Shown here: positions 10,668-34,827 of the stretch, piece by piece
Layout: every line of letters begins with the position of its first letter
Position numbering within the stretch: position 1 is the stretch's first letter
From: Desulfobaccales bacterium
GTDB taxonomy: Bacteria; Desulfobacterota; Desulfobaccia; Desulfobaccales; 0-14-0-80-60-11
DNA length: 38,984 nt
Reading direction: 5' to 3'
Assembly: GCA_030694005.1 (NCBI GenBank)
Contig: JAUXZG010000035.1
Coordinates: forward strand, 1-38,984
Translations under genes and position numbers: made by a program
Notes under the pieces: generated by a model
Told to the model about the DNA's origin: nothing
Seen by the model: the letters and a program-made list of their open reading frames with translations, nothing else
The model's database searches: none

Positions 10668-10709
10668 CTGCCCCTCCCTTTGGGTGGCAAATTTGGGACT
10701 CGCTACAGG

Positions 10710-11933
10710 TTACAATTCCATAATCCTCTCGGTCGGATTTTCCCGTAAAATCATCAGGGTAAGATAGTCCCGGATCTTGCGGGTGATGAGAAAATGATGG
10801 CGGACGAATTCTCGGGCCATCTTGCCCATGCGCCGGGCCATTTCCGGCCGGTGCAGGAGATAGCGGATACGAAAGGCGCAGCCCTCCGGGGAATGGACTA
10901 GAAACCCGGTATTATAGTCCCGGAGCTGCAGCACAATACCGCCCACCGCGCCGCCGATAACCGGTTTGCCCTTCCACATGGCTTCGGTGACGGTGAGACC
11001 GAAGCCCTCCCGGGTGGACTTTTGGACAATGATATCGGAGGCCCGCTGCAGGGCATTGACTTCATGGTGGGCGTCCGGCGGCAAGAGAAGGATCTGGATA
11101 TCCGGCTCATCTTTGGCGGCTTCCATGACCTCGGCAAAGATGCGGGGCCCTTCCGGATCATCGATGGCTTCCCCGCCAGCCAGAACCAGCTTACAGGGGG
11201 TATGGCGCCGCACCATGCGAAAGGCCTGGATTACTCCCACGGGATCCTTAAAGGAATCAAAGCGGGAAACCTGCAGGATGATGGGCTTATCCCGTTCGAT
11301 GCCCAGGCGGTCTAGAACTTTCCGGACTTCCGCGGTGCTCAGGTCCCGGTTCTTTTCGCTCAAGGGGTCGATGGAGGGGCGGATGAGATACTGGGGGTGG
11401 GGCAGATTCTGGGCGAACTGGGACATGGAGAACACCGAGGCCTCATATTGGCTGACGATCTCCTGCAGGAATTTCCAGACCAGGCGCTCTGGCCGGGAGG
11501 CATCGATGTGGCAGCGCCAGATCCAGTGTTTGGCTTGGGGACGGAGAAAATTAATCAGATAGGCGGGCTGAGGGTCATGCACCAGGACAAAATCTGATTC
11601 CCAGGTAAACTTGCGGGCGTTCTCCCGATTAATCTCCCGGTAATGATCCAGCATGTCGGGGGAGAGATGTACCTTATAGCCTTGCAGGGCATTATGCATG
11701 GCCTTGGTGATCTCAAAGAACTCCTGATCTCCATGGATCACTTCCCATTTGACATCCAGCCCTAACTGTTCCAGTAAGGGGACGGCCCGGTCTAGAATTT
11801 CTGCCACCCCGCCCCCGGTGCGGGTGGAATTGATGTGGATAAATCGCCGGGGGCCTAGACGGTCCGCCAGTCGTTGGAGCTGTTCGATCACTTCCTGACC
11901 CACGACGGGGGCATAATCATTGAGTCCGATCAC
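10710..11933 (-). CDS. treT: Trehalose synthase TreT-like GT4 glycosyltransferase
   Basis: This 407-residue GT4-family protein resembles trehalose glycosyl-transferring synthase (TreT), which makes trehalose from NDP-glucose and free glucose, reversibly. HINSTRTGGGVAEIL near residue 35 is the family's N-terminal glycine loop. LQVSRFDSFKDPVGVIQAF is the GT-B second-domain start. STREGFGLTVTEAMWKGKPVIGG is the E-x7-E donor-binding region. The start is GTG at 11933, with GGGAG six bases upstream. It overlaps the end of the DUF5752 gene by 17 bases, so the two are translationally linked. Having TreT beside OtsA/OtsB gives the cell two potential routes to trehalose. The substrate assignment follows from family resemblance and operon context. 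Confidence 0.85.
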   Translation of the reverse strand: MIGLNDYAPVVGQEVIEQLQRLADRLGPRRFIHINSTRTGGGVAEILDRAVPLLEQLGLDVKWEVIHGDQEFFEITKAMHNALQGYKVHLSPDMLDHYREINRENARKFTWESDFVLVHDPQPAYLINFLRPQAKHWIWRCHIDASRPERLVWKFLQEIVSQYEASVFSMSQFAQNLPHPQYLIRPSIDPLSEKNRDLSTAEVRKVLDRLGIERDKPIILQVSRFDSFKDPVGVIQAFRMVRRHTPCKLVLAGGEAIDDPEGPRIFAEVMEAAKDEPDIQILLLPPDAHHEVNALQRASDIIVQKSTREGFGLTVTEAMWKGKPVIGGAVGGIVLQLRDYNTGFLVHSPEGCAFRIRYLLHRPEMARRMGKMAREFVRHHFLITRKIRDYLTLMILRENPTERIMEL

Positions 11934-12609
11934 AGAGGTCTCCCAGATGTTGATGAATCAGCCCTAAAAGGGTGTCCCGGATTTCTCTCAAGCTATAGAA
12001 GTAAATATCTATGCCACGGATGGCGGCAACCAACTCCGGCAGACCGAAGTTGGTCTCAATCCAGAAGGAAAAGTCATCGGCTTTGCGCACCCCCAGGCGC
12101 CAGCGGGCTTCAAAAAAATGATAATACATAGAATCCAACCCCACTTTCCGCAGGCTCTCGCAGAACTCCAGCAAGGTATGGGCGCGGATCTGAGAGCGCA
12201 TCACCACGGTGGAGGCCTCACAGAAATGAAACTCAAACCCGGAGCGAGCCCAGGGCACATAGGGGATATCCCAGAGGTACTCCTCCAGGATGTCCACAAC
12301 GGCCTGGCGGACCTGGGCCAGATTGTCATAGTCAAAGGGGTCAAAGGAGCTGAGCTTCTCGGCCAGCTTGGAGTCTTGCAAGGCGTTGGCAGCCCACCGG
12401 GCAAACTCGTTGGGATATTCCTCCGCCGGCTGGGTGATGGCCAGGCGGGACTGAAAGATATGGTAGTAGAGGACCGATTCGTCAAGCTCGCGGAGGGCCT
12501 GAAGCAACTCCCTGAGATTATGCGCCTTTTTCCCGATGGGCATGGGCATGAGAAAACATTCCCGGAACCAAAAGGGATTTTCAGCCGGCTGATCTGGACT
12601 AATTTTCAC
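11917..12609 (-). CDS. DUF5752 family protein in the trehalose operon
   Basis: This 230-residue soluble protein resembles DUF5752 members, whose function is not established. It contains two similar halves. RECFLMPMPIGKKAHNLREL...LYYHIFQSRL in the first is echoed by FEFHFCEASTVVMRSQIRAHTL...MYYHFFEARWRL in the second, suggesting an internal duplication. It starts with GTG in the GTGA overlap with the otsB stop and ends 17 bases inside treT. It is therefore co-translated between the phosphatase and the synthase and is probably a partner or regulator of trehalose metabolism. No catalytic motif or transmembrane segment is seen. The duplication was noted by eye and would need an alignment to confirm. 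Confidence 0.75.
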   Translation of the reverse strand: MKISPDQPAENPFWFRECFLMPMPIGKKAHNLRELLQALRELDESVLYYHIFQSRLAITQPAEEYPNEFARWAANALQDSKLAEKLSSFDPFDYDNLAQVRQAVVDILEEYLWDIPYVPWARSGFEFHFCEASTVVMRSQIRAHTLLEFCESLRKVGLDSMYYHFFEARWRLGVRKADDFSFWIETNFGLPELVAAIRGIDIYFYSLREIRDTLLGLIHQHLGDLCDRTQ

Positions 12610-13403
12610 GGTTTCTCCTCCCCCTGGGTTGCGAGCAAGGCCAAAAACTCCCGCACTTGCGCTGGATTCTTGAGAAAATGGGTGGCCTTGGTAGGCTGCT
12701 CTTCGTCTCCCACTTTGAAAGATAGACCTTGTTCCTGAATCACTGCAAAAACACTTTTATCAGTAGTATCATCCCCTAGATACAAAGGAAAATATCCAAC
12801 AAAATAAGAAGATAGCAAGATCTTCTGAATCGCCTCACCCTTGTTTACTCCGTAGGGCAAGACCTCCATCACCTTTTTCCCTCGAAGAAGCTGGTAGGAC
12901 CCAGACTCAACTATATGTGCCTTCCAAGTTTCTATAATCTTTAGGAGTTGGTCTTCCTGCCCTGGAGAGGCTTGCCGGTAATGGAGGGCAAAACCCTGGG
13001 GTTTGTCTTCTATCCACCAGCCGGTAAAATGCTCTAAAAGTCCGGCTAACTGTTTTTTCCACCCAGAAATTTCTTCTGAGGCAGATTTCATGTTTATTAA
13101 ATTCAAGGGCTTTCCGGCAATCAGGCCTTCTCCTCCATGGGAGCCAAGATAATTAAGTCCAGGGATAGGCAATAATTTAAGTAAATTTTGTAGAGGTCGG
13201 CCGGAGACCACCACTACTGCATAATCGAGCCGATTAATGAGGCGGGCCAGTAGTCGCAAAAGCCCAGGAGTGGGGTAGGCTAACTCAGGGCGAGGGGCAA
13301 TCTCTACCAATGTGCCATCATAGTCTAACAGCAACAAGAGCTTTCGCCCTTGCCTACGGCCTTGTACCATTCTCGCAAAGAAGTCAACCGGCTGTGCAAG
13401 CAT
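12606..13403 (-). CDS. otsB: Trehalose-6-phosphate phosphatase
   Basis: This 265-residue HAD-superfamily phosphatase would remove phosphate from trehalose-6-phosphate. Motif I is LLLDYDGTLVEIAP, where the first Asp is the nucleophile and the second the acid/base. Motif II is VVVVSGRPLQN. GSHGGEGL and VMEVLPYGVNKGEAI match the OtsB cap and motif III lysine. LGDDTTDKSVF is motif IV with the Mg-binding aspartates. Length fits the family. It is the first gene of the operon, which continues through a 4-base GTGA overlap into the DUF5752 gene. No good Shine-Dalgarno precedes the ATG at 13403; a candidate promoter lies about 180 bp upstream. Confidence 0.92.
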   Translation of the reverse strand: MLAQPVDFFARMVQGRRQGRKLLLLLDYDGTLVEIAPRPELAYPTPGLLRLLARLINRLDYAVVVVSGRPLQNLLKLLPIPGLNYLGSHGGEGLIAGKPLNLINMKSASEEISGWKKQLAGLLEHFTGWWIEDKPQGFALHYRQASPGQEDQLLKIIETWKAHIVESGSYQLLRGKKVMEVLPYGVNKGEAIQKILLSSYFVGYFPLYLGDDTTDKSVFAVIQEQGLSFKVGDEEQPTKATHFLKNPAQVREFLALLATQGEEKP

Positions 13404-18691: not shown

Positions 18692-20038
18692 ATGCAACCA
18701 AAACCCTCTGGTCTCTCTAATTTTGAGCTGATGTTTGTGGCTTTGCTGTTGTTGGCCACCCCCCTGATGATTTTCTGGCGACCCCAGTTACCTTTTTTCT
18801 ATATCCTGGATGATTGGACGGCCCTGATCCAGATGGCCCAGGAGCCTTTCTGGCAATACCTAGTCCGGCCTGACGGGGAACAATGGTTCCCCTTTTTCCA
18901 TCTGATCTTTTATGGGCTGGTAAAGGTTGCCGGAGAACGTTATTACCTCCTAATCATGATTAACAGCCTGGGCATAGGCATAAATGCTTTTTTGCTTTAT
19001 CTCTTTTTACGGCGTCACTTCGGCGCCGGCCTGGCCTTGGTCTTAAGCCTTTTCTATGCCGGGGCGGCAGTAAACCACGCCATTGCCTGGAATGCTTTTT
19101 ATCTCTGCTATGTCCTCAGTCTGGGCTTTTTTCTGGGGGCCCTGCTGTTAACCGCCAGTTATCTCAGCTCTCCCACCTTTTTAAGACTTCTGGGGATCGG
19201 TATCTGTGCCCTGCTGTCCATCCTCTCCCACAATTACACCCTTCTGGGGCTGTGGGCCTTGCCGCTCTATACCGTCTTGCTGGGGGGACCGGAGGGCCGG
19301 GCTAGATCTTTACGCCTGGCCGTGACCGTGGGCGTGGTGTATCTGGCCTTCGGCCTGGGTTACTGCCGGTTTGCCGGCATCACCTCCGCGGCCAGCCACA
19401 ACCTCACCATCTTCTCGGGCCTGCCGGGGCCCAAGTATCTGTTGCATATATTCTTTGCCGCCTTCCTCTCTCCCTTTCTTTATCTGTTTTGGGGCCATTA
19501 TCACTTCCCGGTCTGGGCTTACTTTGCCGGCAGCGCTTTACTGACTACCAGTCTGGCTGTGATCTGGGTGGCAGGCGGAGCCCCAGAGAGGCGTTTGGGC
19601 CTTTGGGCCCTCCTGGGCAACGCCCTGCCTTTTTTGCTCATTTCCCTGACCCGTTATCAAAGATCCGTCAACCAGGCCTTTGTGGCGCGCTACGGGATTT
19701 TCACTCTCATAGGGGCCTTGATCCTAATGGGAACGGCCTGGCGCCTTTTGAACGCCAGGCTTCCCCAGAGGCTCTGGTTCAAGCTGATGGCCCTAAGTTT
19801 ATTGGCCGCCATGGTTGCCGGGCAGTTTTTGAGCCTGCCTCTCTGGCAGCAGAAATATCTGGACATGAGCCGGGCGGCGAGTACTTGTTATCATAAGCTT
19901 AACCTCGAAGGAGAATTTACTGGACCAGTCGCGGAAAAGTTATTTCAACAGTTCTGTCCCACGGCTCATCCCAGCCTCACCCGCAGCCAAGCAGTGGCCA
20001 TTAGGCAGTTCCTCTCTGGTACTCTTAAAGATCGATGA
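18692..20038 (+). CDS. Multi-pass membrane protein, GT-C glycosyltransferase-like
   Basis: This 448-residue protein has about ten hydrophobic helices. The first loop after helix 1 contains FFYILDDWTALIQM, an acidic DD pair in the position typical of GT-C glycosyltransferases that use lipid-linked sugar donors. RPDGEQWFPFFHLIFY follows. The C-terminal 80 residues are soluble and end SLTRSQAVAIRQFLSG. The likely role is sugar transfer on the periplasmic side, for instance onto a glycan or lipid handled by the ligase-like protein just upstream (7 bp apart). No specific family is recognised by eye, so the GT-C call rests on topology and the DD motif. A hairpin (AAGATTATTAAAGAATAATCTT) 100 bp downstream may end the transcript. 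Confidence 0.65.
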   Translation: MQPKPSGLSNFELMFVALLLLATPLMIFWRPQLPFFYILDDWTALIQMAQEPFWQYLVRPDGEQWFPFFHLIFYGLVKVAGERYYLLIMINSLGIGINAFLLYLFLRRHFGAGLALVLSLFYAGAAVNHAIAWNAFYLCYVLSLGFFLGALLLTASYLSSPTFLRLLGIGICALLSILSHNYTLLGLWALPLYTVLLGGPEGRARSLRLAVTVGVVYLAFGLGYCRFAGITSAASHNLTIFSGLPGPKYLLHIFFAAFLSPFLYLFWGHYHFPVWAYFAGSALLTTSLAVIWVAGGAPERRLGLWALLGNALPFLLISLTRYQRSVNQAFVARYGIFTLIGALILMGTAWRLLNARLPQRLWFKLMALSLLAAMVAGQFLSLPLWQQKYLDMSRAASTCYHKLNLEGEFTGPVAEKLFQQFCPTAHPSLTRSQAVAIRQFLSGTLKDR

Positions 20039-21508: not shown

Positions 21509-22807
21509 ATGTCACTAAAAAACCGCTGCCAGCCTTTTGCTCTTATGGTACAAGGCGCCAGGGAACAAGGGTTTTACCCTTACTTCCGCCCCATCAACCG
21601 CTCTTGGGGGACAGAAGTGGAGGTTGCGGGCCGGCGTCTGATAATGATCGGGTCCAATGACTACCTTGGGTTAAGCCATGACCCTCGGGTATTGGAGGCG
21701 ACGGCTCAGGCCTTGCGCCGCTGGGGCAGTGGCACCGGCGGGTCCCGATTCTTATGCGGCAATTTAACCCTGCATGAGGCCCTGGAAGAACGCTTGGCCA
21801 CCTTTGTGGGCAAGAAAAAAGCCGTGGTCCATGCCACCGGTTTCACCACCAACCTGGGAGCTATCGCCTGTCTTTTGACCGCCCAGGATGTCATTGTGTG
21901 CGACCGGGAAAATCATGCCAGCATTTTTGAGGGTTGCCAGGCCTCCCGGGCCCGGCTGATCCCTTTTGCCCACAATGATGCCGCCGCCGCGGCCCGCAAG
22001 CTGGCCTTGGCCCGCCAGAAAAACCTCAACGGCTGCCTGCTGTTAATCACCGAGGGGGTGTTTTCCATGTCCGGCGACATGGCGCCCCTGGACGAACTGG
22101 TGAAGTTAAAGAAGGTCTATCCAGACCTGCTCCTTTACCTGGACGATGCCCACGGTTTGGGGGTGATGGGCCGTCAAGGCAGGGGCACGGCGGATCACTT
22201 TGGCCTGACCTCCCAGGTGGATTTCATCATGGGTACTTTTAGCAAGGCCCTGGCTTCCATCGGCGGCTTTATTGCCGCAGACGATGAGGCGGTCCTGGAA
22301 TATCTGCGTCACCATTCCAAGCCTTTGATCTTTTCCGCGGCCCTCCCCGCCAGCAATGCGGCCACGGTATTGGCCTGTCTGGATATCCTGGACCAGAACC
22401 CCGAGCGGGTAGCCCGGCTGTGGGAGATTACCAGGCGGGTGCATGCCGGATACCGGGAGATCGGGCTGGTCACCAAGCATTCCAAAACTCCCATCATCCC
22501 CATATATATCGGCGCCGAAGAAAAGGCTTTCTTCTTCGCCCGGGAGATGTTCGATCACGGGGTTTTCGCTCTGCCCGCCATCTATCCCGCGGTGCCCCGC
22601 GGCCAGGCAGTAATTCGCACCGCCTTTATGAGCACTCATAAAGAACGCCAGATCCAGTATGTCCTGGAGGTGCTGGCAAAACTGGCCAAGAAGCATCGCA
22701 TTCGGGCTTGTGACCTTGACGAACCAGAACCTTTTGTGGAAAGGGGCGGCTTTTCCGCCACAGCCGCCAATCCCTCAGGTACCTCAGCCAGCCTGGCGGG
22801 CGATTAA
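21509..22807 (+). CDS. spt: Serine palmitoyltransferase-like alpha-oxoamine synthase
   Basis: This 432-residue PLP enzyme belongs to the alpha-oxoamine synthases, which condense an amino acid with an acyl thioester. Lys246 in GTFSKALASIGGF would bind PLP. Asp213/His215 (LDDAHGLG) and His136 (NHAS) are the usual cofactor contacts. QGFYPYFRPI, GTEVEVAGRRLIMIGSNDYLGL and MGTFSKALASIGGFIAAD closely resemble Bacteroides-type serine palmitoyltransferase as I remember it, more than BioF or Kbl. It would make 3-ketosphinganine, the first sphingolipid step. A 35-residue Ser/Ala-rich tail follows the core. It is the first gene of a long operon; the ABC permease follows after 23 bp. An alternative is a KBL/AONS with another acyl substrate. 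Confidence 0.82.
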   Translation: MSLKNRCQPFALMVQGAREQGFYPYFRPINRSWGTEVEVAGRRLIMIGSNDYLGLSHDPRVLEATAQALRRWGSGTGGSRFLCGNLTLHEALEERLATFVGKKKAVVHATGFTTNLGAIACLLTAQDVIVCDRENHASIFEGCQASRARLIPFAHNDAAAAARKLALARQKNLNGCLLLITEGVFSMSGDMAPLDELVKLKKVYPDLLLYLDDAHGLGVMGRQGRGTADHFGLTSQVDFIMGTFSKALASIGGFIAADDEAVLEYLRHHSKPLIFSAALPASNAATVLACLDILDQNPERVARLWEITRRVHAGYREIGLVTKHSKTPIIPIYIGAEEKAFFFAREMFDHGVFALPAIYPAVPRGQAVIRTAFMSTHKERQIQYVLEVLAKLAKKHRIRACDLDEPEPFVERGGFSATAANPSGTSASLAGD

Positions 22808-22830: not shown

Positions 22831-24009
22831 ATGAGGCTTGATGACCTCTTGCGCGTCAGTGTCCGGCAGGTGCTGCGCCACCGCCGCCGTTACCTGGGGG
22901 TGGTTCTGGCCATCGCCTTGGGTGTTGCCGGCTTCATGCTGGTAATGACCATGAGCCGGGACTTCAAAAAGAATTTCAATCGGGACCTGAACCTGATCGG
23001 TGGCGCTACCATCATCAGGATGTATTTTGAGGACCTGCCAGACCATCGCCCCCAGTGGTTCCGCACCGAAACCCTCGCCGGCCTGCGCCGCATCCCCGGA
23101 GTGACCGACGCCAGCCTGGTGGCCCTGGCCGGGTCGGCCCGCACCAACTGGCGGACCCGCCAATATTACTTCAGCCTGCTGGGAGTAGATGACTCTTTCT
23201 GGGAAGTGCGGGGCTTATGGCCCCTCAAAGGACAATTATTTCACGATGCCGACGTTGAGGCGCGGAAACGAGAGGTCGTCTTGGGGACCGAATTGGCCCG
23301 CCGTATCTTTGGCTCCCAAGAGGTGGAAGGCCGCTACATGGAGATCGACCACGACCTTTACCGGGTGAGCGGCTTACTGGGCGGCATAACCGACAGCAGC
23401 CTGGCCAATTCCGCCTTTATCCCCCTCACCACGGCCCAGGATCGCGTCTCTGGTATTTCTCTACCCAATCGCCTTTATCTGCGCGTTCTCACCTGGGACG
23501 ATGTGGACCGGGTAGTCGCGGCCGTCCCCGCCGCCGTCTCTGCCCACCAGTCCGCGGACCTGCTGCGGGTGGAGGTTTCCTGGGAAGCCCTAAAACGCGT
23601 GAAACATGTGGCCTGGTGGGTGGAGTTCTTTATTTATCTGGCCTTAAGCGCTACCCTGATCCTGGGAGGCTTTGGTATCTGGAATGTCATGATGGCGGCG
23701 GTGCGCTCCCGCACCCGGGAGATTGGCCTGAAAAAGGCCATGGGAGCTGAAGACCGGGATATCCTGGCCCAATTCCTCTCGGAGGCTCTTTGTCTCAGTG
23801 TGGGTTCCGCCATCTTGGGCGTGGCCCTGGGCCGGCTGGCCATGGAGGTCATGGGTTACTTCATCGGCAGCAGTCCGCCGTTAGACCTCTTTCTTATCTG
23901 CTTGGCTTTGGGACTCCTGTTTGCGGTGTTTCTGGGAGTGGGAGCCGGTCTTTACCCCTCCATCCAGGCAAGTCGCATGGAAGTAGTATCGGCCATCCGC
24001 TATGAATAA
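22831..24009 (+). CDS. ABC transporter permease, FtsX/MacB type
   Basis: This 392-residue inner-membrane protein has the MacB/LolC plan. One helix lies at about 22-42 (YLGVVLAIALGVAGFMLVMTM), then a periplasmic domain of some 210 residues, then three helices in an FtsX domain. The last part includes RSRTREIGLKKAMGAEDRDILAQFLSEA and ASRMEVVSAIRYE, the coupling-helix and terminal motifs of the family. With the ATPase encoded next it forms a mechanotransmission-type exporter working with TolC and an adaptor. GGGAGG lies six bases before the ATG. The gene overlaps the ATPase start by 8 bases. The cargo is unknown; the adjacent SPT-like gene points to a lipid or amphiphile (inference). Confidence 0.9.
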   Translation: MRLDDLLRVSVRQVLRHRRRYLGVVLAIALGVAGFMLVMTMSRDFKKNFNRDLNLIGGATIIRMYFEDLPDHRPQWFRTETLAGLRRIPGVTDASLVALAGSARTNWRTRQYYFSLLGVDDSFWEVRGLWPLKGQLFHDADVEARKREVVLGTELARRIFGSQEVEGRYMEIDHDLYRVSGLLGGITDSSLANSAFIPLTTAQDRVSGISLPNRLYLRVLTWDDVDRVVAAVPAAVSAHQSADLLRVEVSWEALKRVKHVAWWVEFFIYLALSATLILGGFGIWNVMMAAVRSRTREIGLKKAMGAEDRDILAQFLSEALCLSVGSAILGVALGRLAMEVMGYFIGSSPPLDLFLICLALGLLFAVFLGVGAGLYPSIQASRMEVVSAIRYE

Positions 24010-24709
24010 AAGATCCCCCTCCAATATGGCCAATGGTGCCTTAATCAGCGTCAGCAACCTGGCCAAGATCTATGCCAACGGCGTGGGTACCATTCCGGTA
24101 CTTCAGAAAGTCAATCTAAAGATCTTTCCCGGGGAGATGGTGGCGGTGATGGGTCCTTCCGGCTCCGGGAAATCGACGCTGCTTTTTATATTGGGCCTCT
24201 TTCTGCATCCCACCCGGGGCTCTTACCATTTAGCCGGGGAGGATGTGCTTAAGTTAGATCGGACCGCCCAGGCGGAATTTCGCCGCCGGCGGGTGGGCTT
24301 TGTTTTCCAAAGTTGCGATTTGTTGGAAAACTCCACGGTTTACGAAAATTTGGAATTCCCCCTGATTTACGCCGGCGTGGACCGGCGGGAGCGGCCCGCC
24401 AGGATCCTGGCCGCCTTGGAACAGGTAAATTTAGAGCACCGCATCCACCATGCCTCCAACCATCTTTCCGGCGGCGAGCGACAGCGGGTAGCCGTGGCTC
24501 GCGCCCTGGTCAACCAGCCGCAAGTCATCCTGGCGGACGAACCCACCGGTCAACTGGACCGGAGCCACAGCCACCTCATCATGGACCATTTTGCGGAAAT
24601 CGTCAAAAAAGCGGAAACCGCCGTGGTGGTGGTGACTCACGACCCAGAAATCGCCGGCCGCTGCACCCGGGTCTGTTCCCTGGATGACGGCATCCTCTAT
24701 GAAGGATGA
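24002..24709 (+). CDS. ABC transporter ATP-binding protein, LolD/MacB family
   Basis: This 235-residue ATPase is complete. Walker A is GPSGSGKST (51-59), the Q-loop region is FVFQSCDLLENSTVYENL, and the signature is LSGGERQRVAVARAL. Walker B with the D-loop is ILADEPTGQLD and the H-loop is VVVTHDPEI. Length and motifs match the LolD/MacB/FtsE clade, which drives exporters with FtsX-type permeases. The start ATG overlaps the permease stop by 8 bases; MANGALISV eight codons further in is an alternative start. Its stop overlaps the next start as ATGA, so permease, ATPase and outer-membrane factor are translationally coupled. Confidence 0.93.
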   Translation: MNKRSPSNMANGALISVSNLAKIYANGVGTIPVLQKVNLKIFPGEMVAVMGPSGSGKSTLLFILGLFLHPTRGSYHLAGEDVLKLDRTAQAEFRRRRVGFVFQSCDLLENSTVYENLEFPLIYAGVDRRERPARILAALEQVNLEHRIHHASNHLSGGERQRVAVARALVNQPQVILADEPTGQLDRSHSHLIMDHFAEIVKKAETAVVVVTHDPEIAGRCTRVCSLDDGILYEG

Positions 24710-26184
24710 CCACAAGGGTTGGGGTGCCTCAGGCTGGGATGACCATGATAACTAGGGCTTGCATTTATCTCAGGAACCCCGCCGGTCTGTTATGGCGGTG
24801 GGGCAGGCCAGGCCGAAATAGGTCTCACCTGGGCAGATGGACGTCTCAAACCATAACCGGCCTCATTATCGGGTTAGTGTTTTTGGCCTTGAGTACTTTC
24901 TGCCTGGCCCAGGCGGCAGCTGCGGCGGCCAAGGAGACCGCCGGCGAAGCCGCGGCTCTCCCTGAGGGCCCTACGGACTTTGACACCTGTGTTCGCTTCG
25001 CCCTACGCCAGTCGCCCTTTCTTACCAAAAGCTCCATGGAAATTGATCTCAAGCGGCTGGACGAATCCGACAGTCGCTATGGCTTTATCCCCGCCTTAGG
25101 ATTTCGCACCACTTATTATGTGGATCGGCCCACCAGCCAAAACGTTAAACCCAGCCCCTATACCCTGTCCTTTACCAGCGAGGCTTATAATCCCCTTGAG
25201 GCCTACTTTTCTTTACAGGTGAAGAAATTAATCACCGAGTTCGCCATCTTAAGCCACCTGCAGGTCATCGCCAACGGCTTGCTCCGCATTGGCCGGGCGT
25301 TTTTAGATTTAGACACCCTGAAACGGGTGGCCACCTGTCAGGATGAACTCATCAGCCTGGCCCGCCAAAACCTGAATTATGCCGAGAAGCGCCTGGGGAT
25401 CGGCACCGCCACCTCCCTGGAAGTCAAGGTGGCCGCGCAAGAACTGGAGCTTGCCATAAGTGAGAAGGAACGGATCCTGGCTTCCCAGAACAATCTGCTG
25501 GAAGGCCTGAAGTCTTTTCTGGGCATGAAACCCGCCCAGGACTTGACTCTCAATCTGGAACAGGTGCAACGCCAGGTGTTCGGCCAGTTCGACCCCGCCG
25601 CCACCACCCTGGGTCAGGCCAAGGCGAGATCGTATGATCTCAAGACGCATGAAATTAAGAAACAACTCCAGGCCTACAATATCACCCTGGCCAAAACCAG
25701 GGTGCTGCCCAACTTTCTGTTTGGCGTCACGACTCCCGACCCCCTAAGCATGACGACCGCCAAGGGCTTTTTCTTCTATATAGGCCTTGAGGTGCCGGTT
25801 TGGGACGGTTTCAAAAGGATTCGTAATATCTCGCGTCAGAAAACCCTCTTGAGACAAATCGATGTAGAGACGGAGACCAAAGAGAGCGACCTGAGCGGTA
25901 AGTGGCAGGTATCCCTGGAGGATGTGCGGGGAGCCGCGGCCAGCCGCAAAGTAGCTCAGGCCCAAGAGGAATTAGGCCGTCTGAAAGAACGGCAAAACGA
26001 AATCCGCTATAAATCCGGGGGGGAACCCCTGACTACCTTTACCGAAGCCCGCAAGGGCTATTTGGAATCTCAGAAAAATAACCTGTTGAAAGCCCTGGAT
26101 TATGACATGGCCGTCCTGAGTTTGCGCCATCTTTCCGGAGACCTGAGTTATAGCTATGTACAAGCTGATTCCTGGCAGAAGTAG
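24706..26184 (+). CDS. TolC-family outer membrane efflux protein
   Basis: This 492-residue protein fits the TolC family: a signal-like stretch (TITGLIIGLVFLALSTFCLA), then DTCVRFALRQSPFL, then long helical repeats. ARQNLNYAEKRLGIGTATSLEV is the YxxGxxx-V element. A second similar half ends in QNEIRYKSGGEPLTTFTEARKGYLESQ. It would form the outer-membrane channel of the exporter. The ATGA start overlaps the ATPase stop, but the signal peptide then begins about 50 residues in. ATGs at 24739 or 24745 are also possible and would still leave a long N-region. Its last 29 bases overlap the adaptor gene. Cargo is inferred from the operon. Confidence 0.88.
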   Translation: MTTRVGVPQAGMTMITRACIYLRNPAGLLWRWGRPGRNRSHLGRWTSQTITGLIIGLVFLALSTFCLAQAAAAAAKETAGEAAALPEGPTDFDTCVRFALRQSPFLTKSSMEIDLKRLDESDSRYGFIPALGFRTTYYVDRPTSQNVKPSPYTLSFTSEAYNPLEAYFSLQVKKLITEFAILSHLQVIANGLLRIGRAFLDLDTLKRVATCQDELISLARQNLNYAEKRLGIGTATSLEVKVAAQELELAISEKERILASQNNLLEGLKSFLGMKPAQDLTLNLEQVQRQVFGQFDPAATTLGQAKARSYDLKTHEIKKQLQAYNITLAKTRVLPNFLFGVTTPDPLSMTTAKGFFFYIGLEVPVWDGFKRIRNISRQKTLLRQIDVETETKESDLSGKWQVSLEDVRGAAASRKVAQAQEELGRLKERQNEIRYKSGGEPLTTFTEARKGYLESQKNNLLKALDYDMAVLSLRHLSGDLSYSYVQADSWQK

Positions 26185-27142
26185 CCTCTTGGTGGGTTTG
26201 GGGGCGGTGGTAGCCTTTGTCTGGCTGTTTCTGGCCTCAGCAGTGACCCCGGCCCAAGAGAAAGGCGGCCCCCCCCAGCCGGAGCCACCCCCCGCCCGGG
26301 GGTCCGAGATCGTGTTTACCGGGAAATTTTTCTGTTCTTTGAAACGCGCGGTGCCCATGCCCTTTAAAGGGACCGTCACTTCTTTAAAGGTCAAGTCCGG
26401 GCAACGGGTGGAAGCCGGGGAAGTCCTGGCCAGATACCGCCTCGCTCCGGAAGCCACTCTCCAGGTCCAGCAGCGTCTTAGTCCTGCCAAAATCAAGGAA
26501 CTGGAAATAAAACAGGCCGAGGTGGAGAAAAACCTGGTCTCCCTGGAAGTCAAACAAAAGGAATTGACTCAGTTGGCCCAGCAGAAGTTGGCCCCCACCC
26601 TGACCAAGACCCAGACGGACCGGGAAGTCCAACAACTGGTCAAACAGCGCAAAGCCGTCTCTGAGCACCTGGCCCAGGAACAGCAACAAGCTCTGGAAGA
26701 CCAGGCCTTCTTAAAAAGTCAACTGGGCAGCTTACCCAATCCCGGGCAGGTTCCCCGGGACGCGGCCCTGGTAGCCCCCGTAAGCGGTTATATCATCTGG
26801 GTGCACCCGGACTTTAGGGAAGGCGCGGAGCTTGACCCCACGAAAGCGGTTTTCCAGATAGGGGTGATGGACCCCATGGTGGTGCGGGCCCATGTTTATG
26901 AAATCGAGGCGCTCCAACTCACCCTGGGCGAGGGGGCCGAGGTCAATGTGGAGTCTTTACCCGGGCGAAATTTTGAGGCAACGGTGAGCCGCATTGCCTG
27001 GGCGCCGGTGCCCCCGTCCATCTATGTCCCCGCCGGGCAGGAACAGCCCTCCTACTATGAAGTTGAGTTAAACGTGCCGAACCCTGACCTCATACTTAAG
27101 GAGGGTTTAAAAGGCCGCGTTACCCTGCGCAAATCCCGCTAA
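26156..27142 (+). CDS. Periplasmic adaptor (membrane fusion) protein, HlyD/MacA type
   Basis: This 328-residue protein has an N-terminal signal or anchor (SSLLVGLGAVVAFVWLFLAS) and a Pro-rich linker. A split biotinyl-lipoyl-like domain (KGTVTSLKVKSGQRVEAGEVLARY and later ALVAPVSGYIIWVHPDFREGAEL) flanks a coiled-coil hairpin of about 100 residues (KELEIKQAEVEKNLVSLEVKQ). A beta-barrel domain (VVRAHVYEIEALQLTLGEGAEVNV) follows. It would bridge the permease and the TolC-like channel. The start lies within the end of the TolC-like gene (29-base overlap). All four parts of a tripartite exporter are thus encoded consecutively: permease, ATPase, channel, adaptor. Confidence 0.88.
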   Translation: MYKLIPGRSSLLVGLGAVVAFVWLFLASAVTPAQEKGGPPQPEPPPARGSEIVFTGKFFCSLKRAVPMPFKGTVTSLKVKSGQRVEAGEVLARYRLAPEATLQVQQRLSPAKIKELEIKQAEVEKNLVSLEVKQKELTQLAQQKLAPTLTKTQTDREVQQLVKQRKAVSEHLAQEQQQALEDQAFLKSQLGSLPNPGQVPRDAALVAPVSGYIIWVHPDFREGAELDPTKAVFQIGVMDPMVVRAHVYEIEALQLTLGEGAEVNVESLPGRNFEATVSRIAWAPVPPSIYVPAGQEQPSYYEVELNVPNPDLILKEGLKGRVTLRKSR

Positions 27143-27154
27143 AGAGGTAACTTG

Positions 27155-28291
27155 ATGGATTTCCAAGGGGAGCTTAACGTGGCTCCCGTACTGGATGAAG
27201 CTGCTTTATGGGAATTTATCCGACTCCCCTGGCGCCTTTACCAGCATGACCCTTACTGGGTGCCGCCTCTTTTGCCCCACCAGCGCCATTTCCTGGACCC
27301 CCAGCGTGGTCCTTTCTTTGAAATCGGCGAGGCCCAGTATTTTCTGGCAATCCAGCAGGGTCGTCCGGTGGGGCGTATTTCCGCCCACCTTAACCGGCTC
27401 CATGATACCCACCATGGCCCGGAGGCCGGGTTTTTCGGATTTTTCGAATGTGTCCCGGACCAGCGGGTAGCCGACGCCCTCTTCGCCGCCGCGGCCGCCT
27501 GGCTGCGCCGGCGGGGAAAAAAGCGCCTCTATGGTCCCTTGAATTTTTCCATCTACGATGAGATGGGACTTTTGGTGGAGGGCTTCGACTCCCTTCCGGC
27601 AATCTTTCAGACTCACAACCCGCCTTATTATCTGGATCTCCTGACATCTTTAGGGTTCCGCAAGACCCTCGACTGGTATGCCCTGAGCATCACCAATCGG
27701 GACATAGACGCGGCGGCCATGGAAAAATGGCTGGAAAGGATCATGCGCGGACAATCCCTGACTTTTACCACCTACCACCCCCGGGAACTGGACAGGCGGG
27801 CCGAGGAAGTGTACGGCATCTTTAACGAAGCCTGGTCCCGCAACTGGGGGCATGTGCCCGTAACTAGACGCCAGTTTCAAGGGGTACTGAAAGATCTCAA
27901 ACCCCTGCTGCGCCCGGAGTTGGTTAATCTTATCATGGATGGCGACCGCCTGGTGGCCTTCGGCATCGCCGTCCCCGACCTTAACCCCCTGGTTAAAAAG
28001 CTGAATGGGCGGCTAACCTTTTGGGGCCGGCTCAGGCTGCTTTATGAAGCCAAATACAAGCCGGTGCGCAAGGTGCGCGCTCTGGTTTTAGGAGTTACCC
28101 AGCCTTATCAGCATCGGCATTTGCACCAGGCCATGATGCTGAAAACCTACCTGTATCTGGTGCGCCATACCCCCTGTGAGATGTGCGACTTATCCTTGAT
28201 TCCCGAAAACCTGGGGCACTACATAAAAACCATAGAGGCCTTTGGGGCCCGGCGCTACAAGACCTTCCGCGTCCTGGAACGGGATATCTGA
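27155..28291 (+). CDS. GNAT-fold acyltransferase-like protein, candidate bacterial ceramide synthase
   Basis: The ATG at 27155, with AGAGG seven bases upstream, is preferred to the track's TTG at 27152; the product is 378 residues. The layout recalls the large GNAT-like family that includes the bacterial ceramide synthase bCerS. FIRLPWRLYQHDPYWVPPLL opens the protein, GEAQYFLAIQQGRPVGRISAHLN follows, then KRLYGPLNFSIYDEMGLLVEGF and PPYYLDLLTSLGFRKTLDWYAL. bCerS N-acylates a sphingoid base with acyl-CoA or acyl-ACP. The match is from memory of the family and not searched. Its place in the same operon as the SPT-like gene is the main support. Other members are annotated only as hypothetical N-acetyltransferases, so another acyl acceptor is possible. 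Confidence 0.6.
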   Translation: MDFQGELNVAPVLDEAALWEFIRLPWRLYQHDPYWVPPLLPHQRHFLDPQRGPFFEIGEAQYFLAIQQGRPVGRISAHLNRLHDTHHGPEAGFFGFFECVPDQRVADALFAAAAAWLRRRGKKRLYGPLNFSIYDEMGLLVEGFDSLPAIFQTHNPPYYLDLLTSLGFRKTLDWYALSITNRDIDAAAMEKWLERIMRGQSLTFTTYHPRELDRRAEEVYGIFNEAWSRNWGHVPVTRRQFQGVLKDLKPLLRPELVNLIMDGDRLVAFGIAVPDLNPLVKKLNGRLTFWGRLRLLYEAKYKPVRKVRALVLGVTQPYQHRHLHQAMMLKTYLYLVRHTPCEMCDLSLIPENLGHYIKTIEAFGARRYKTFRVLERDI

Positions 28292-28295
28292 ACCC

Positions 28296-30050
28296 ATGGG
28301 GGATGCAGCCAGGCCACTCGCCAAGGACTGGGCGGACTTGGGACTGGTAGCTCTGCTCTCTGCCGCGGTCTTTGGCCTGGCCCATTTGGCGGCCCTCACC
28401 AACCCCTTCGTCATCAATGATGATGTGCGCCAGCAGATCTTCTGGATGCAGCAGTGGCAGGACCCGGAGCTTTTTCGGGGAGACCTCCTAAGCGATTACG
28501 CCCGCCATTATGTTACCTGGGGAGTCAAAGGGTTGTATTGGCTGGCCTCCTGGGTGGTGGGCCCCATAACTTTCTCTAAGATATTGCCCGGCCTGTTGTT
28601 TGTCTTTCTGGCGGGTTGTTTCTTTAAGATCGGTGAGGTCCTGTGGGGGGTACGCCGCCTGGCCTGGATGGCGGTGGCCGTCTTTTGGTTGCTGCCCTTC
28701 TTTCTGGACAATATGTCCGGAGGCCTGGCCCGGGCCTTTGCCGCGCCGATGCTGGCCCTGTTTTGGCTGTACTGGCTTAACCGCTCTCCCCGGGGCCTGG
28801 CTGTGGTCCTGCTGCTGCAAGCCCTGTTCATCCCCTATATTTTTGTATTAGCAGCCACCGCGGCCCTGCTGGCCTGGGGGCTAAGTCGCGTCGGCGGGAG
28901 CTCGCCCCCGCCTTTTCCGGTCCGGCCGGCCCACTTTTCCCTGCTGGCCCTGGGGGCTGGCCTGGTAGTCCTCATGAACTACCAGTTCACCGCCGCGGGT
29001 TACGGGCCCCTGGTGAGCTGGGCCGAGATGACCAACCGCCCGGAATTCGCCTCTGGAGGGCGGTTCGCTATCTTACCGGTGCCTTCCCTCTTCTGGGAAT
29101 TGATCAGCCCCTGGGAGTTCATCGCCCCTTTTAGGGAAGGGGGGCTCATCGTCGGCAGCCTGGGGGGTGCCATCCTTCTGGGGTTGGCAATTTACGGCAG
29201 CCTGCGTCTCGACCGGCGGGCCCTTAAGTCCCGGTGGCAGCCGGTCTGCTATCTGGGTCTGGCCTCCTTGCTGCTCTACCTCCTGGCCCGCCTTTTCTGG
29301 CTAAAGCTATTCGTCCCGGACCGCTATCTCATTTACACCCTTAACCTATTTTATTGCCTAGCCCTGGCCTGGTGCTGGGGGTCGGCCATCCAACTCCAGC
29401 GGTGGCCCCGCCTCCTGACGGTCCTGGCCCTGATCCTGGCGGCCGGGTTAGGGGCCTGGCGCCTTCAAGGGGTGGGGCTCTATGATTTTGCCGTTTACCG
29501 GCCCGTATACGCCGCCCTGGCGCAAACCCCCAAGGACGCTCTGATCGCCGGCCACCCCAATCTGATGGATAATGTTATGACCTTCGGCCAACGGCGAGCC
29601 CTGGCTACCTTTGAACTGTCCCAACCCTGGAGCCGGGGCTATTGGCAGAGGATAAAGTCCCGCCTTGACGACCTATTCACCGCGTATTATACTGATAATC
29701 CAGAGGTGGTGCGGACCTTCGCCCAGAAGCATCAGGTCGCCTTTCTGGTGGTGGATGAGCGGCATTTCACCCCGGCCTTCCTGGCCGGGGGCCGCTTTTT
29801 CGTGCCCTTTAATGATTTAACCTTCCGGGGCCATAGAAAGAAGCTGACCGAGAAGGTCGTTTGTCCCTTTTTTGCTCCTTTCGGGGAGCTGATTCGCACC
29901 CAGACCCAAAACCGTAGCCACTTTGCCTTGCTTGACCCCCAGGCCTTTCCCCGCCAGGCCATCGGTGACCATCTGTGGCTCATAGATATGCGGCCCAGCT
30001 TTAGCGACCATGCCCTCAGGCCGATACCCCAGTCAGGAGAAGTTAGGTGA
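28296..30050 (+). CDS. Large multi-pass membrane protein, GT-C glycosyltransferase-like
   Basis: The ATG at 28296 lies four bases after the previous stop; the track's TTG at 28242 lies inside the previous gene and is rejected. The 584-residue product has about ten to twelve hydrophobic helices in its first 400 residues. The first outward loop contains NPFVINDDVRQQIFWMQQW, an Asp-Asp pair in the position of the catalytic acid in GT-C enzymes. The last 170 residues form a soluble domain (ALIAGHPNLMDNVMTFGQRRAL onward). A sugar transferase acting on a lipid or glycan outside the inner membrane is plausible. The gene overlaps the next as GTGA. In this operon it might glycosylate the lipid product, which is inference. 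Confidence 0.65.
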   Translation: MGDAARPLAKDWADLGLVALLSAAVFGLAHLAALTNPFVINDDVRQQIFWMQQWQDPELFRGDLLSDYARHYVTWGVKGLYWLASWVVGPITFSKILPGLLFVFLAGCFFKIGEVLWGVRRLAWMAVAVFWLLPFFLDNMSGGLARAFAAPMLALFWLYWLNRSPRGLAVVLLLQALFIPYIFVLAATAALLAWGLSRVGGSSPPPFPVRPAHFSLLALGAGLVVLMNYQFTAAGYGPLVSWAEMTNRPEFASGGRFAILPVPSLFWELISPWEFIAPFREGGLIVGSLGGAILLGLAIYGSLRLDRRALKSRWQPVCYLGLASLLLYLLARLFWLKLFVPDRYLIYTLNLFYCLALAWCWGSAIQLQRWPRLLTVLALILAAGLGAWRLQGVGLYDFAVYRPVYAALAQTPKDALIAGHPNLMDNVMTFGQRRALATFELSQPWSRGYWQRIKSRLDDLFTAYYTDNPEVVRTFAQKHQVAFLVVDERHFTPAFLAGGRFFVPFNDLTFRGHRKKLTEKVVCPFFAPFGELIRTQTQNRSHFALLDPQAFPRQAIGDHLWLIDMRPSFSDHALRPIPQSGEVR

Positions 30051-31615
30051 GAACCCTGCTGCTAAATCCCGAGATGCCTGCGTCCTTCTGGAGCTTTAAG
30101 CAGTCTTGCGAACTTGCGGGTCGCAAGACCCTTCTGCCACCGCTGGGGTTAATTACGGTGGCGGCGCTGCTTCCCCGGGAATGGGAATTCCGTCTGGTGG
30201 ATTTGAATACCCGCCAGGTCAACGAAGCAGACTGGGCCTGGGCTGAGTCAGTGATGATCTCCGGGATGTTGGTCCAGAAGGAAGGCCTGTTGGCCCTCAC
30301 CCGGGAGGCGAAACAGCGAGGCAAAACCGTGGTCGTCGGCGGACCCTACCCCACTTCCCTGCCCCAGGAGGCCCTGGACGCAGGAGCCGATTTTTTGATC
30401 CGGGGAGAGGGCGAGAATACTATCCCGCTGTTTCTGTCAGCACTTAAGGAAGGGAAAAGACCGGGGATAATTGAGCGGAAGGGAAAGCCTGACCTGACGA
30501 CCTCCCCGGTGCCCCGCTTTGACCTGCTCAACTTCGACCATTATATTGACCTTTCTCTCCAGACCTCCCGGGGATGTCCTTTCGACTGCGAATTCTGTGA
30601 TGTGGTCAACCTTTACGGCCGTAAGCCCCGCTATAAAAATCCCCAGCAAGTCCTGGCCGAGTTGGAAACCCTTTACCGCCTGGGATGGAGGGGGGAGGTT
30701 TTTATCAGCGATGACAATTTTATCGGCAACCAGAACCATGCCCGGGCCATCCTGGACGAGCTGATCCCCTGGATGCAGGGCCACGGCGAACCTTTCGGCT
30801 TCTGGACCCAGACCTCGGTGAATCTCGGGTTCCAACCGGACCTGGTGAACCTTTTGACCGCCGCCAATTTCGGCCACATCTTCATCGGCATTGAGTCTCC
30901 CGATGAGGCGGTGCTGACTTTAAATCGCAAGTACCAGAACCTGAGAAATCCCCTGGACCAGTCTCTGGCCAATATCACCGCCAACGGCCTGTCAGTGGTG
31001 GCCAGCTTCATCATCGGCTTTGACCAGGAGCAGCCGGGAGCGGGCGACCGGATCTGCACTTTCGTGGAGAAGAATAATATCCCCCTGGTAATGCTGAACA
31101 CCCTGGAGGTTCTCCCCAACACCAGCCTGTGGGACCGCCTGAAAAAGGAAGGCCGGCTTCTGGAAACTAGAACCAGCGGGAATACCGGAGGCGGCAGGTT
31201 AAACTACCTCCCCACCCGCCCGGAAGCGCAGATATTAACCGAATATGTGGACGCATTAGACCGGCTTTACGAACCCAGGCGCTACCTGTCTCGAACGTAC
31301 CGCTCCTTTCTAACCATGAGGCCCACCCGCCGCCATCTGGCGCTTCAGAAAGGGGAAAAAGCCAGGCCCCGGGTTAAAAAGGAGCGCTCCCCGTTTAGAG
31401 GCGCCCTCAGAGAACTCACCGGGTTGCTGAAGCTCATCTGGCGGCAAGGGGTGAAGGCCGACTACCGGTGGCAGTTCTGGAGGCAGTTAGTGGGGATTTA
31501 CCAGAAAAACCCCAGCCGCCTGAGAAAATACCTGCATAGCTGCAGCATGGGGGAGAATATGTTTCAGCTCCGGGAGGAGCCCCTTAAATCGCGCCAGGCC
31601 AAGGTGCGTCCATAA
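30047..31615 (+). CDS. B12-binding radical SAM protein with DUF4070-like C-terminus
   Basis: This 522-residue enzyme has an N-terminal cobalamin-binding-like Rossmann domain (residues 1-130, without the DxHxxG base-off histidine motif). A radical SAM core with CPFDCEFC (Cys177, 181, 184) follows, then a C-terminal region (ICTFVEKNNIPLVMLNTLEVLPNTSLWDRL...) resembling DUF4070. Relatives of this architecture, such as HpnR hopanoid C-3 methylase and archaeal lipid-ring or calditol synthases, act on unactivated lipid carbons. The start is GTG in a GTGA overlap with the preceding gene, with GGAG upstream, so it is translationally coupled. A lipid-modifying role fits the SPT-like, bCerS-like neighbours but is inferred. 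It is the last gene of the operon. Confidence 0.85.
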   Translation: MRTLLLNPEMPASFWSFKQSCELAGRKTLLPPLGLITVAALLPREWEFRLVDLNTRQVNEADWAWAESVMISGMLVQKEGLLALTREAKQRGKTVVVGGPYPTSLPQEALDAGADFLIRGEGENTIPLFLSALKEGKRPGIIERKGKPDLTTSPVPRFDLLNFDHYIDLSLQTSRGCPFDCEFCDVVNLYGRKPRYKNPQQVLAELETLYRLGWRGEVFISDDNFIGNQNHARAILDELIPWMQGHGEPFGFWTQTSVNLGFQPDLVNLLTAANFGHIFIGIESPDEAVLTLNRKYQNLRNPLDQSLANITANGLSVVASFIIGFDQEQPGAGDRICTFVEKNNIPLVMLNTLEVLPNTSLWDRLKKEGRLLETRTSGNTGGGRLNYLPTRPEAQILTEYVDALDRLYEPRRYLSRTYRSFLTMRPTRRHLALQKGEKARPRVKKERSPFRGALRELTGLLKLIWRQGVKADYRWQFWRQLVGIYQKNPSRLRKYLHSCSMGENMFQLREEPLKSRQAKVRP

Positions 31616-33888: not shown

Positions 33889-34827
33889 CTACCTTTGGGC
33901 CCAGGGGCTGGCCAAAAACCATTCATAGGTCCGCCTGAGGCCCTCTTCCAGAGGCATTTGCGCCCGCCAGCCCATGGCGTGCAGCCGGCTCACCTCTAAC
34001 AGCTTCCGGGGGGTGCCATCCGGTTTGCTGGGATCAAAGGCCAGCTCGCCCTTAAACCCCACCACCTGGGCCACGAGCTCGGCCAGCTCTCTGATGCTCA
34101 GGTCCTGGCCCACCCCCACATTGACGATCTCGGAGCCCTCATAATTTTCCATCAGAAAGAGGCAGGCGTCGGCCAGGTCACCCACATACAAAAATTCCCG
34201 GCAGGGCGAACCGGTGCCCCAGATCACCACTTCCTTAGCGCCGGCGACCTTGGCTTCATGGCACTTGCGCATCAGGGCGGGAACCACATGAGAGTCCAAC
34301 AGGTCGAAATTATCCCCCGGCCCATAGAGGTTGGTGGGCATCAGGGAGATGAAGCAGGTGCCGTACTGCCGGTTGTAGGCCTGACACATCTTGATGCCGG
34401 CGATCTTGGCCACCGCATAGGGTTCATTGGTGGGCTCCAGCTTACCGTCCAGCAGATGCTCTTCCTTCATGGGCTGGGGGCAGAATTTAGGATAGATACA
34501 GGAACTTCCCAGGAAGAGAAGCTTTTTTACCTTATTAACATAGGCCTGATGAATGATATTGTTCTGGATCTGTAAATTGTCATAAATGAACTCCCCCGGG
34601 TAGGTGGAGTTGGCGTGGATGCCCCCCACCTTGGCCGCGGCCAGAAAGATATACTCCGGCCGCTCCTGCTGGAAAAAGTCGGCCACGGCCCCCTGGTTTC
34701 TCAGGTCCAACTCCTCTAAGGAACGATAAATCAGGTGGCCAAAGCCCGCGGCCTTAACCCGCCTGAAGATGGCCCCGCCCACCAGACCCTGGTGTCCGGC
34801 CACATAGATTTTGGCGTCCTTCTCCAT
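33889..34827 (-). CDS. fcl: GDP-L-fucose synthase
   Basis: This 312-residue epimerase/reductase converts GDP-4-keto-6-deoxy-D-mannose to GDP-L-fucose with [16 protein letters not shown] is the cofactor-binding loop. SSCIYP and [11 protein letters not shown] give the Ser/Tyr-x3-Lys catalytic triad. [23 protein letters not shown] and [18 protein letters not shown] are strongly conserved. It lies 24 bp downstream of gmd on the same strand, so the two enzymes for making GDP-fucose from GDP-mannose are an operon. The full length matches the family. The sugar presumably feeds the exopolysaccharide genes that follow on the strand. Confidence 0.95.

Follow-up and report, generated by a model that had tools for sequence, protein, structure and literature searches.

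A bacterial ceramide synthase homologue encoded with an Spt-like enzyme and a tripartite exporter in a Desulfobaccales bacterium

In Caulobacter, Lpt-like proteins have been proposed to transport sphingolipids, and the passage of bacterial sphingolipids across the envelope is just starting to be worked out. The Caulobacter genes are arranged as aasR-cerR-acpR-spt ... lptF2-lptG2-cerS, where cerS is CC_1154 (PMC11324152); serine palmitoyltransferase (Spt) and bacterial ceramide synthase (bCerS) are cytoplasmic and CerR is periplasmic (PMC11087976). A Black Sea study that tracked Spt, bCerS and CerR ties 1-deoxyceramides to Desulfobacterota (PMC11334938). A precedent for lipid export comes from Anabaena, whose heterocyst glycolipids leave through DevBCA-TolC, a MacB-like pump in which permease and ATPase are separate proteins (PMC6161253). 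Here we analyse a stretch of 38,984 nucleotides from a Desulfobaccales bacterium (contig JAUXZG010000035.1; the whole stretch is called the window and its genome G000), in which an earlier note had proposed the gene at 27155-28291 as a candidate bCerS next to an exporter. At a probability of roughly 0.7, we consider that this bCerS homologue and an Spt-like enzyme of the same operon make a ceramide-type lipid, and that their own tripartite pump exports it, both product and cargo being predicted.

P0001 and the bacterial ceramide synthase family

The 378-aa product of 27155-28291 is labelled P0001 here, and its proposed relation to bCerS is supported by full-length reciprocal homology with the Caulobacter gene. 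Four named Caulobacter genomes were reached via their S-layer protein, and these congeners stand in for C. vibrioides. Each has a single significant relative of P0001 (E 7e-53 to 3e-50, residues 5-376; next best 0.15). BLASTP aligned P0001 with the Caulobacter protein at the bCerS position along the whole length (31% over 383 columns, 172 bits, E 1e-54), and in the reverse search P0001 was the sole match in the window genome (2.1e-49), making the two mutual best hits. When the BLASTP result, with the congener as query, is rescaled to a database size of 1e8 by our own arithmetic, E becomes ~6e-42. The bCerS screen of the Black Sea study used E <= 1e-30 and >= 50% coverage (PMC11334938), and judged by rescaled E and full-length coverage P0001 would lie inside these limits.

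Gene position agrees with the homology. In Caulobacter sp. Root343, the relative of P0001 comes directly after two LptF/LptG genes, ~7 kb downstream of an acyl carrier protein (ACP) gene and spt, which are preceded by a CerR-like short-chain dehydrogenase/reductase (SDR) and an acyl-ACP synthetase. Because this order equals the published one, the relative is by position the CC_1154/bCerS orthologue. From these sequence comparisons, P0001 is well supported as a bCerS-family N-acyltransferase, probably of GNAT type, with predicted substrate and activity, and is classed as a divergent new member of a known family. It shares with Caulobacter bCerS/CerS (CC_1154, CCNA_01212) the full-length family, an identity of 31-33% and the presence of spt. 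In contrast to Caulobacter, the window gene is packed in one operon with spt and has no cerR, aasR or acpR nearby, its exporter is tripartite instead of Lpt-like, and its clade is a separate lineage.

The segments on which the earlier proposal had been built, RLPWRLYQHDPYWVPPLL, GRISAHLN and GPLNFSIYDEMGLLVEGF, are all present in P0001 and map onto conserved positions of a 24-sequence family alignment, in which P25, W35, P38, G73, G127, P128 and G138 are invariant and R74, I75, S132, L140, G143 and F144 nearly so. In Pfam, P0001 matches PF00583 GNAT alone and below threshold (E 0.046), and the NCBIfam search of P0001 gave no match, and for these reasons it would be annotated automatically as hypothetical. 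The same Pfam model is matched by 16/24 family members (best 3.6e-7). A PDB search with the single P0001 sequence returned no match, while the family profile returned weak GNAT matches (E 0.02). The possibility that likeness to bCerS is that of a generic GNAT fold was considered, and the homology was found to extend well past this fold. Relatives of P0001 were absent from a scan of viral contigs.

Relatives of P0001 occur in 69/247 sampled genomes of the same phylum. An Spt gene lies within 9 kb at 33 of 60 family loci, and within 500 bp at 23, and a CerR-like gene is found at 29/60; the chance expectation is ~1% by our estimate, in which two alpha-oxoamine synthase genes are placed randomly in a 3 Mb genome. 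Named loci linked with spt and/or cerR are from Streptomyces, Rubrobacter, Pseudomonas, Rahnella and Acidisoma. The plasmid-borne Streptomyces and Rubrobacter relatives lie in alpha-oxoamine synthase-GNAT-SDR operons, and those of Pseudomonas and Rahnella are divergent from aasR-cerR-acpR-spt. Since spt/cerR linkage recurs across phyla, the family as a whole follows ceramide synthesis. Members in unrelated contexts of genomes in which no Spt was detected (G035, G074, G152 and the less complete G028 and G109; G and L numbers denote genomes and loci compared) would fit a GNAT of other function, such as N-acylation of amino acids or envelope glycans, with incidental spt linkage. We judge this improbable for P0001, given the linkage across phyla, the operon spacing of spt in 11 window-clade genomes and the reciprocal match with the Caulobacter gene along the full length.

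Other family loci have arrangements of their own. Spt-like - bCerS-like - CerR-like operons lie at L127:4763-8045 (Streptomyces sp. NBC_01001 plasmid) and L129:4710-8077 (Rubrobacter radiotolerans plasmid), with genes annotated merely as aminotransferase, GNAT/hypothetical, and epimerase or oxidoreductase; an LTA-synthase-like gene follows the Rubrobacter operon. An spt - GNAT (bCerS-like) - PAP2-family operon is found in G029 (L020:560-3825), with 24 nt between spt and GNAT, and PAP2 genes, candidates for a head-group transferase or phosphatase, also adjoin many other bCerS homologues. At L100, L101, L103, L179 and L180, the bCerS-like gene is directly followed by a CerR-like gene with no spt nearby, and L179 and L180 also have two ABC ATPase matches. 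A member on a Roseomonas plasmid (L128:5968-7125) is annotated 'dATP pyrophosphohydrolase', an apparent misnomer.

The Spt-like enzyme and the search for CerR

The strongest clue to the identity of P0001 is an Spt-like gene (21509-22807), unmentioned in the earlier note, which opens the same operon 4.35 kb upstream. That note had set the window apart from the usual neighbourhood of bCerS near spt; exporter genes do lie between the two genes here, but an Spt homologue is present too. The best curated model for its product is NF047600 serine palmitoyltransferase (441.8 bits; next best 358), and the best PDB match is Sphingobacterium Spt 3a2b (E 6.7e-100). Twelve active-site positions were compared with 3A2B in 14 window-type members, and in 14/14 all are as in 3A2B, save Gly for Ala79. 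Equivalents of the pyridoxal phosphate lysine, His138, Asp210, His213, Arg367 and Ala274 of the Sphingobacterium multivorum enzyme (PDB 3A2B) are conserved in the window Spt. In a rule that discriminates the two enzymes, SulA has Lys where Spt has Ala (PMC9304779); at this position (SulA Lys281) Ala was found in 14/14 members and Thr in BioF/KBL-like paralogues of the same family, and identity with the cysteate acyltransferase SulA was therefore rejected. Moreover, a tree parts Spts, including the window type, from BioF/KBL-like proteins (SH-aLRT 99).

CerR is a marker of the pathway and not of the bCerS protein itself. A profile search of ten window-type genomes, G000 and nine relatives, found no CerR orthologue: best scores were 88-160 bits, versus 293-482 for true CerRs in control genomes, and the 160-bit maximum is at the level of background SDRs (159 bits for those of G029). 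Completeness is 94.7% for G000 and 99% for several of the other window-type genomes. An epimerase at 33889-34827 was rejected as a CerR candidate; it has no CerR match and adjoins a GDP-mannose dehydratase. With no CerR orthologue, the predicted product would be a 3-keto lipid, unless another reductase acts.

The same absence bears on the nature of the lipid. P0001 and the Spt-like enzyme may instead make an N-acyl alpha-aminoketone lipid from alanine or glycine, that is, a 1-deoxy- or headless ceramide analogue and not a strict sphingolipid. Both enzymes diverge from characterised ones, and window-type Spts have Gly in place of Ala79, a residue of Sphingobacterium Spt that reaches the side chain of the substrate through a water contact (PMC10196870); together with the missing CerR and the 1-deoxyceramides of Black Sea Desulfobacterota (PMC11334938), these points favour such a product. 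In catalytic residues and diagnostic Ala, however, the enzyme matches Spt and not SulA, and we regard this alternative as rather unlikely.

The operon and its exporter

The P0001 gene is the sixth of eight packed genes on the same strand, with spacers of -29 to +23 nt. These genes, and one further gene upstream, are as follows.

18692..20038, plus strand: second polytopic GT-C-like protein, ~11 predicted transmembrane segments; upstream of spt across a 1470-nt gap and associated with the operon
21509..22807, plus strand: Spt-like alpha-oxoamine synthase, first gene of the operon (NCBIfam NF047600, PDB 3a2b match)
22831..24009, plus strand: MacB/DevC-type ABC permease (PF12704 MacB_PCD 1.2e-23; PF02687 FtsX 1.7e-19)
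24002..24709, plus strand: separate ABC ATPase of LolD/MacB/DevA type (PF00005 1.2e-34; LolD, MacB and DevA models)
24706..26184, plus strand: TolC-like outer-membrane channel (PF02321 OEP 1.1e-26, two stretches)
26156..27142, plus strand: periplasmic adaptor, HlyD/DevB-like (PF16576 4.9e-18; RND_mfp 1e-16; heterocyst DevB 5e-10)
27155..28291, plus strand: bCerS-family N-acyltransferase gene (ATG at 27155, stop ending at 28291; start codon preceded by purine-rich AGAGGT)
28296..30050, plus strand: GT-C-like membrane protein (at least 8 predicted transmembrane segments; NDDVRQ after the first)
30047..31615, plus strand: B12-binding radical SAM protein with DUF4070 and a CPFDCEFC motif (PF13282 3.9e-40, PF02310, PF04055)

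Permease, ATPase, adaptor and outer-membrane channel are encoded together and make up a tripartite exporter, and the neighbours are as the earlier note described them, with the exporter upstream of P0001 and a polytopic GT-C-like protein downstream. Like DevBCA-TolC (HgdD) of Anabaena, the window pump has a separate MacB-like permease and ATPase, a DevB-like adaptor and a TolC-type channel (PMC6161253), and by this analogy DevBCA-TolC would be its closest functional model; the window pump differs in its linkage to sphingolipid genes, from which its cargo is predicted.

Related genera share the order spt - permease - ATPase - TolC - adaptor - bCerS - GT-C-like - B12 radical SAM, in which the radical SAM gene is less constant than the rest. 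Outside G000, the spt-exporter module, called complete as far as fetched stretches allow, is found in 13 genomes: G231 and 12 of the window's family (G001-G008, G010-G012 and G015, with altered gene order in G008). At operon spacing, spt and the GNAT gene occur together in 11 genomes (G000, G002, G006, G007, G009, G010, G012, G014, G017, G018 and G231; the GNAT gene of G010 is split over two contigs), whereas they are unlinked in G004, G005, G011 and G015, where the spt-exporter core persists with bCerS elsewhere in the genome. MacB-type permeases carry many cargoes and the adaptor and channel models are generic, as would suit a common MacAB-type pump for drugs or peptides that lies in the operon by chance, with just spt and bCerS belonging together. 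However, the spt-exporter linkage is kept across the family even where bCerS is unlinked, and the gene order is tight and overlapping; we hold a chance placement of the pump to be unlikely.

In two trees, the window-family GNATs form a supported clade (100/99 and 99), which also takes in G231 and, more distantly, two copies from G152. The phylogeny that the earlier note had called for supports this clade, but its link to the Caulobacter clade runs through an unresolved backbone. When the most divergent members serve as root, several lineages emerge, the window clade among them, and most of these contain spt-linked members. The two copies of G152 (L055 and L058; genome 99% complete) possibly act on a different acyl acceptor.

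For the GT-C-like protein at 28296-30050, no Pfam or NCBIfam family was found; its gene is kept beside the GNAT gene in G002, G006, G007, G010, G012 and G231, and that at 18692-20038 beside spt in G002, G006, G007, G010 and G012. The nearest NCBIfam models of the radical SAM protein are TIGR04013, the lipid-biosynthesis radical SAM model TIGR04072 and HpnR, all far under cut-off, and a role as lipid-tailoring enzyme is possible. Outside the window operon, bCerS-family genes of L084 and L098 adjoin B12 radical SAM/DUF4070-like genes, a hint that ceramide-type lipids may undergo a radical SAM reaction. The small open reading frames in the 1470-nt gap that precedes spt include none recognisable as an ACP gene, an Rfam scan gave no match, and promoter-like sites were at chance level. 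Elsewhere in the window, a trehalose cluster lies at 9189-13403 on the minus strand, with OtsA/OtsB-type and TreT-type enzymes and a DUF5752 gene in between.

Proposed pathway and its meaning

One tight operon unites the bCerS homologue with a probable first enzyme of ceramide synthesis and a complete envelope-spanning pump, suggesting that these bacteria make and export a sphingolipid. Homology, the structure of the operon and its conservation, an active site of Spt type and the absence of CerR were established by computation; from these we infer substrates, reaction order, tailoring and exporter cargo. In the cytoplasm, a 3-keto long-chain base would arise when the Spt-like enzyme condenses an acyl thioester with an amino acid, probably serine but perhaps alanine or glycine. 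At the inner membrane, the bCerS homologue would add a second acyl chain to the amino group, giving ceramide or, more probably, 3-keto-ceramide, and the keto group would be retained or reduced by an enzyme other than CerR. Tailoring may follow, with the B12 radical SAM protein modifying the lipid and the GT-C-like proteins adding sugars, and the co-encoded DevBCA/MacAB-TolC-type pump would move it across the envelope. Only tentatively do we extend this to a secretion system devoted to sphingolipids: an Spt/bCerS pair independent of CerR would make a ceramide that is 3-keto or unusual in another way, radical SAM and GT-C-like proteins would tailor it, and the DevBCA/MacAB-TolC-type pump, not Lpt-like machinery, would deliver it to the outer membrane or outside.

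Several observations weigh against synthesis and export of a ceramide-type lipid by this operon. The Spt-like protein scores under every curated Spt cut-off (640 bits for NF047600, under which the G029 Spt likewise falls with 553 bits) and, unlike S. multivorum Spt, belongs to a long-branched clade of its own in the Spt tree. The window GNAT clade likewise stands apart as a lineage at the end of a long branch, with SLIPEN in place of the SWxLED of Caulobacter bCerS; its nearest outside relatives are the two copies of G152, one of the five member-bearing genomes in which no Spt was found at 1e-40. In G001, G003 and G008, the spt-exporter module is accompanied by just a distant bCerS homologue. 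An AlphaFold2 model of P0001 made without alignment was unusable (mean pLDDT 35), and pump and lipid are connected by linkage and the DevBCA analogy only.

The Spt/bCerS/CerR sets of the Black Sea study, from Desulfobacterota and other phyla, belong to the same protein families as those of the window, but an exporter-linked operon without CerR is unmentioned in its available passages (PMC11334938). Our literature search found no description of an spt-MacB/TolC operon; it covered open-licence papers only, and the absence is weak evidence. The new part is this exporter-linked, CerR-less operon, which is more interesting than the family membership of P0001. In addition, the analysis points to spt-bCerS-CerR operons on Actinomycetota plasmids, and a gene usually labelled hypothetical is placed in the sphingolipid pathway. 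The missing CerR gives a clear chemical prediction, namely a kept keto group or a different reductase. A conserved spt-exporter operon would provide a second candidate route for bacterial sphingolipids across the envelope, unrelated to the Lpt-like proteins and directly testable.
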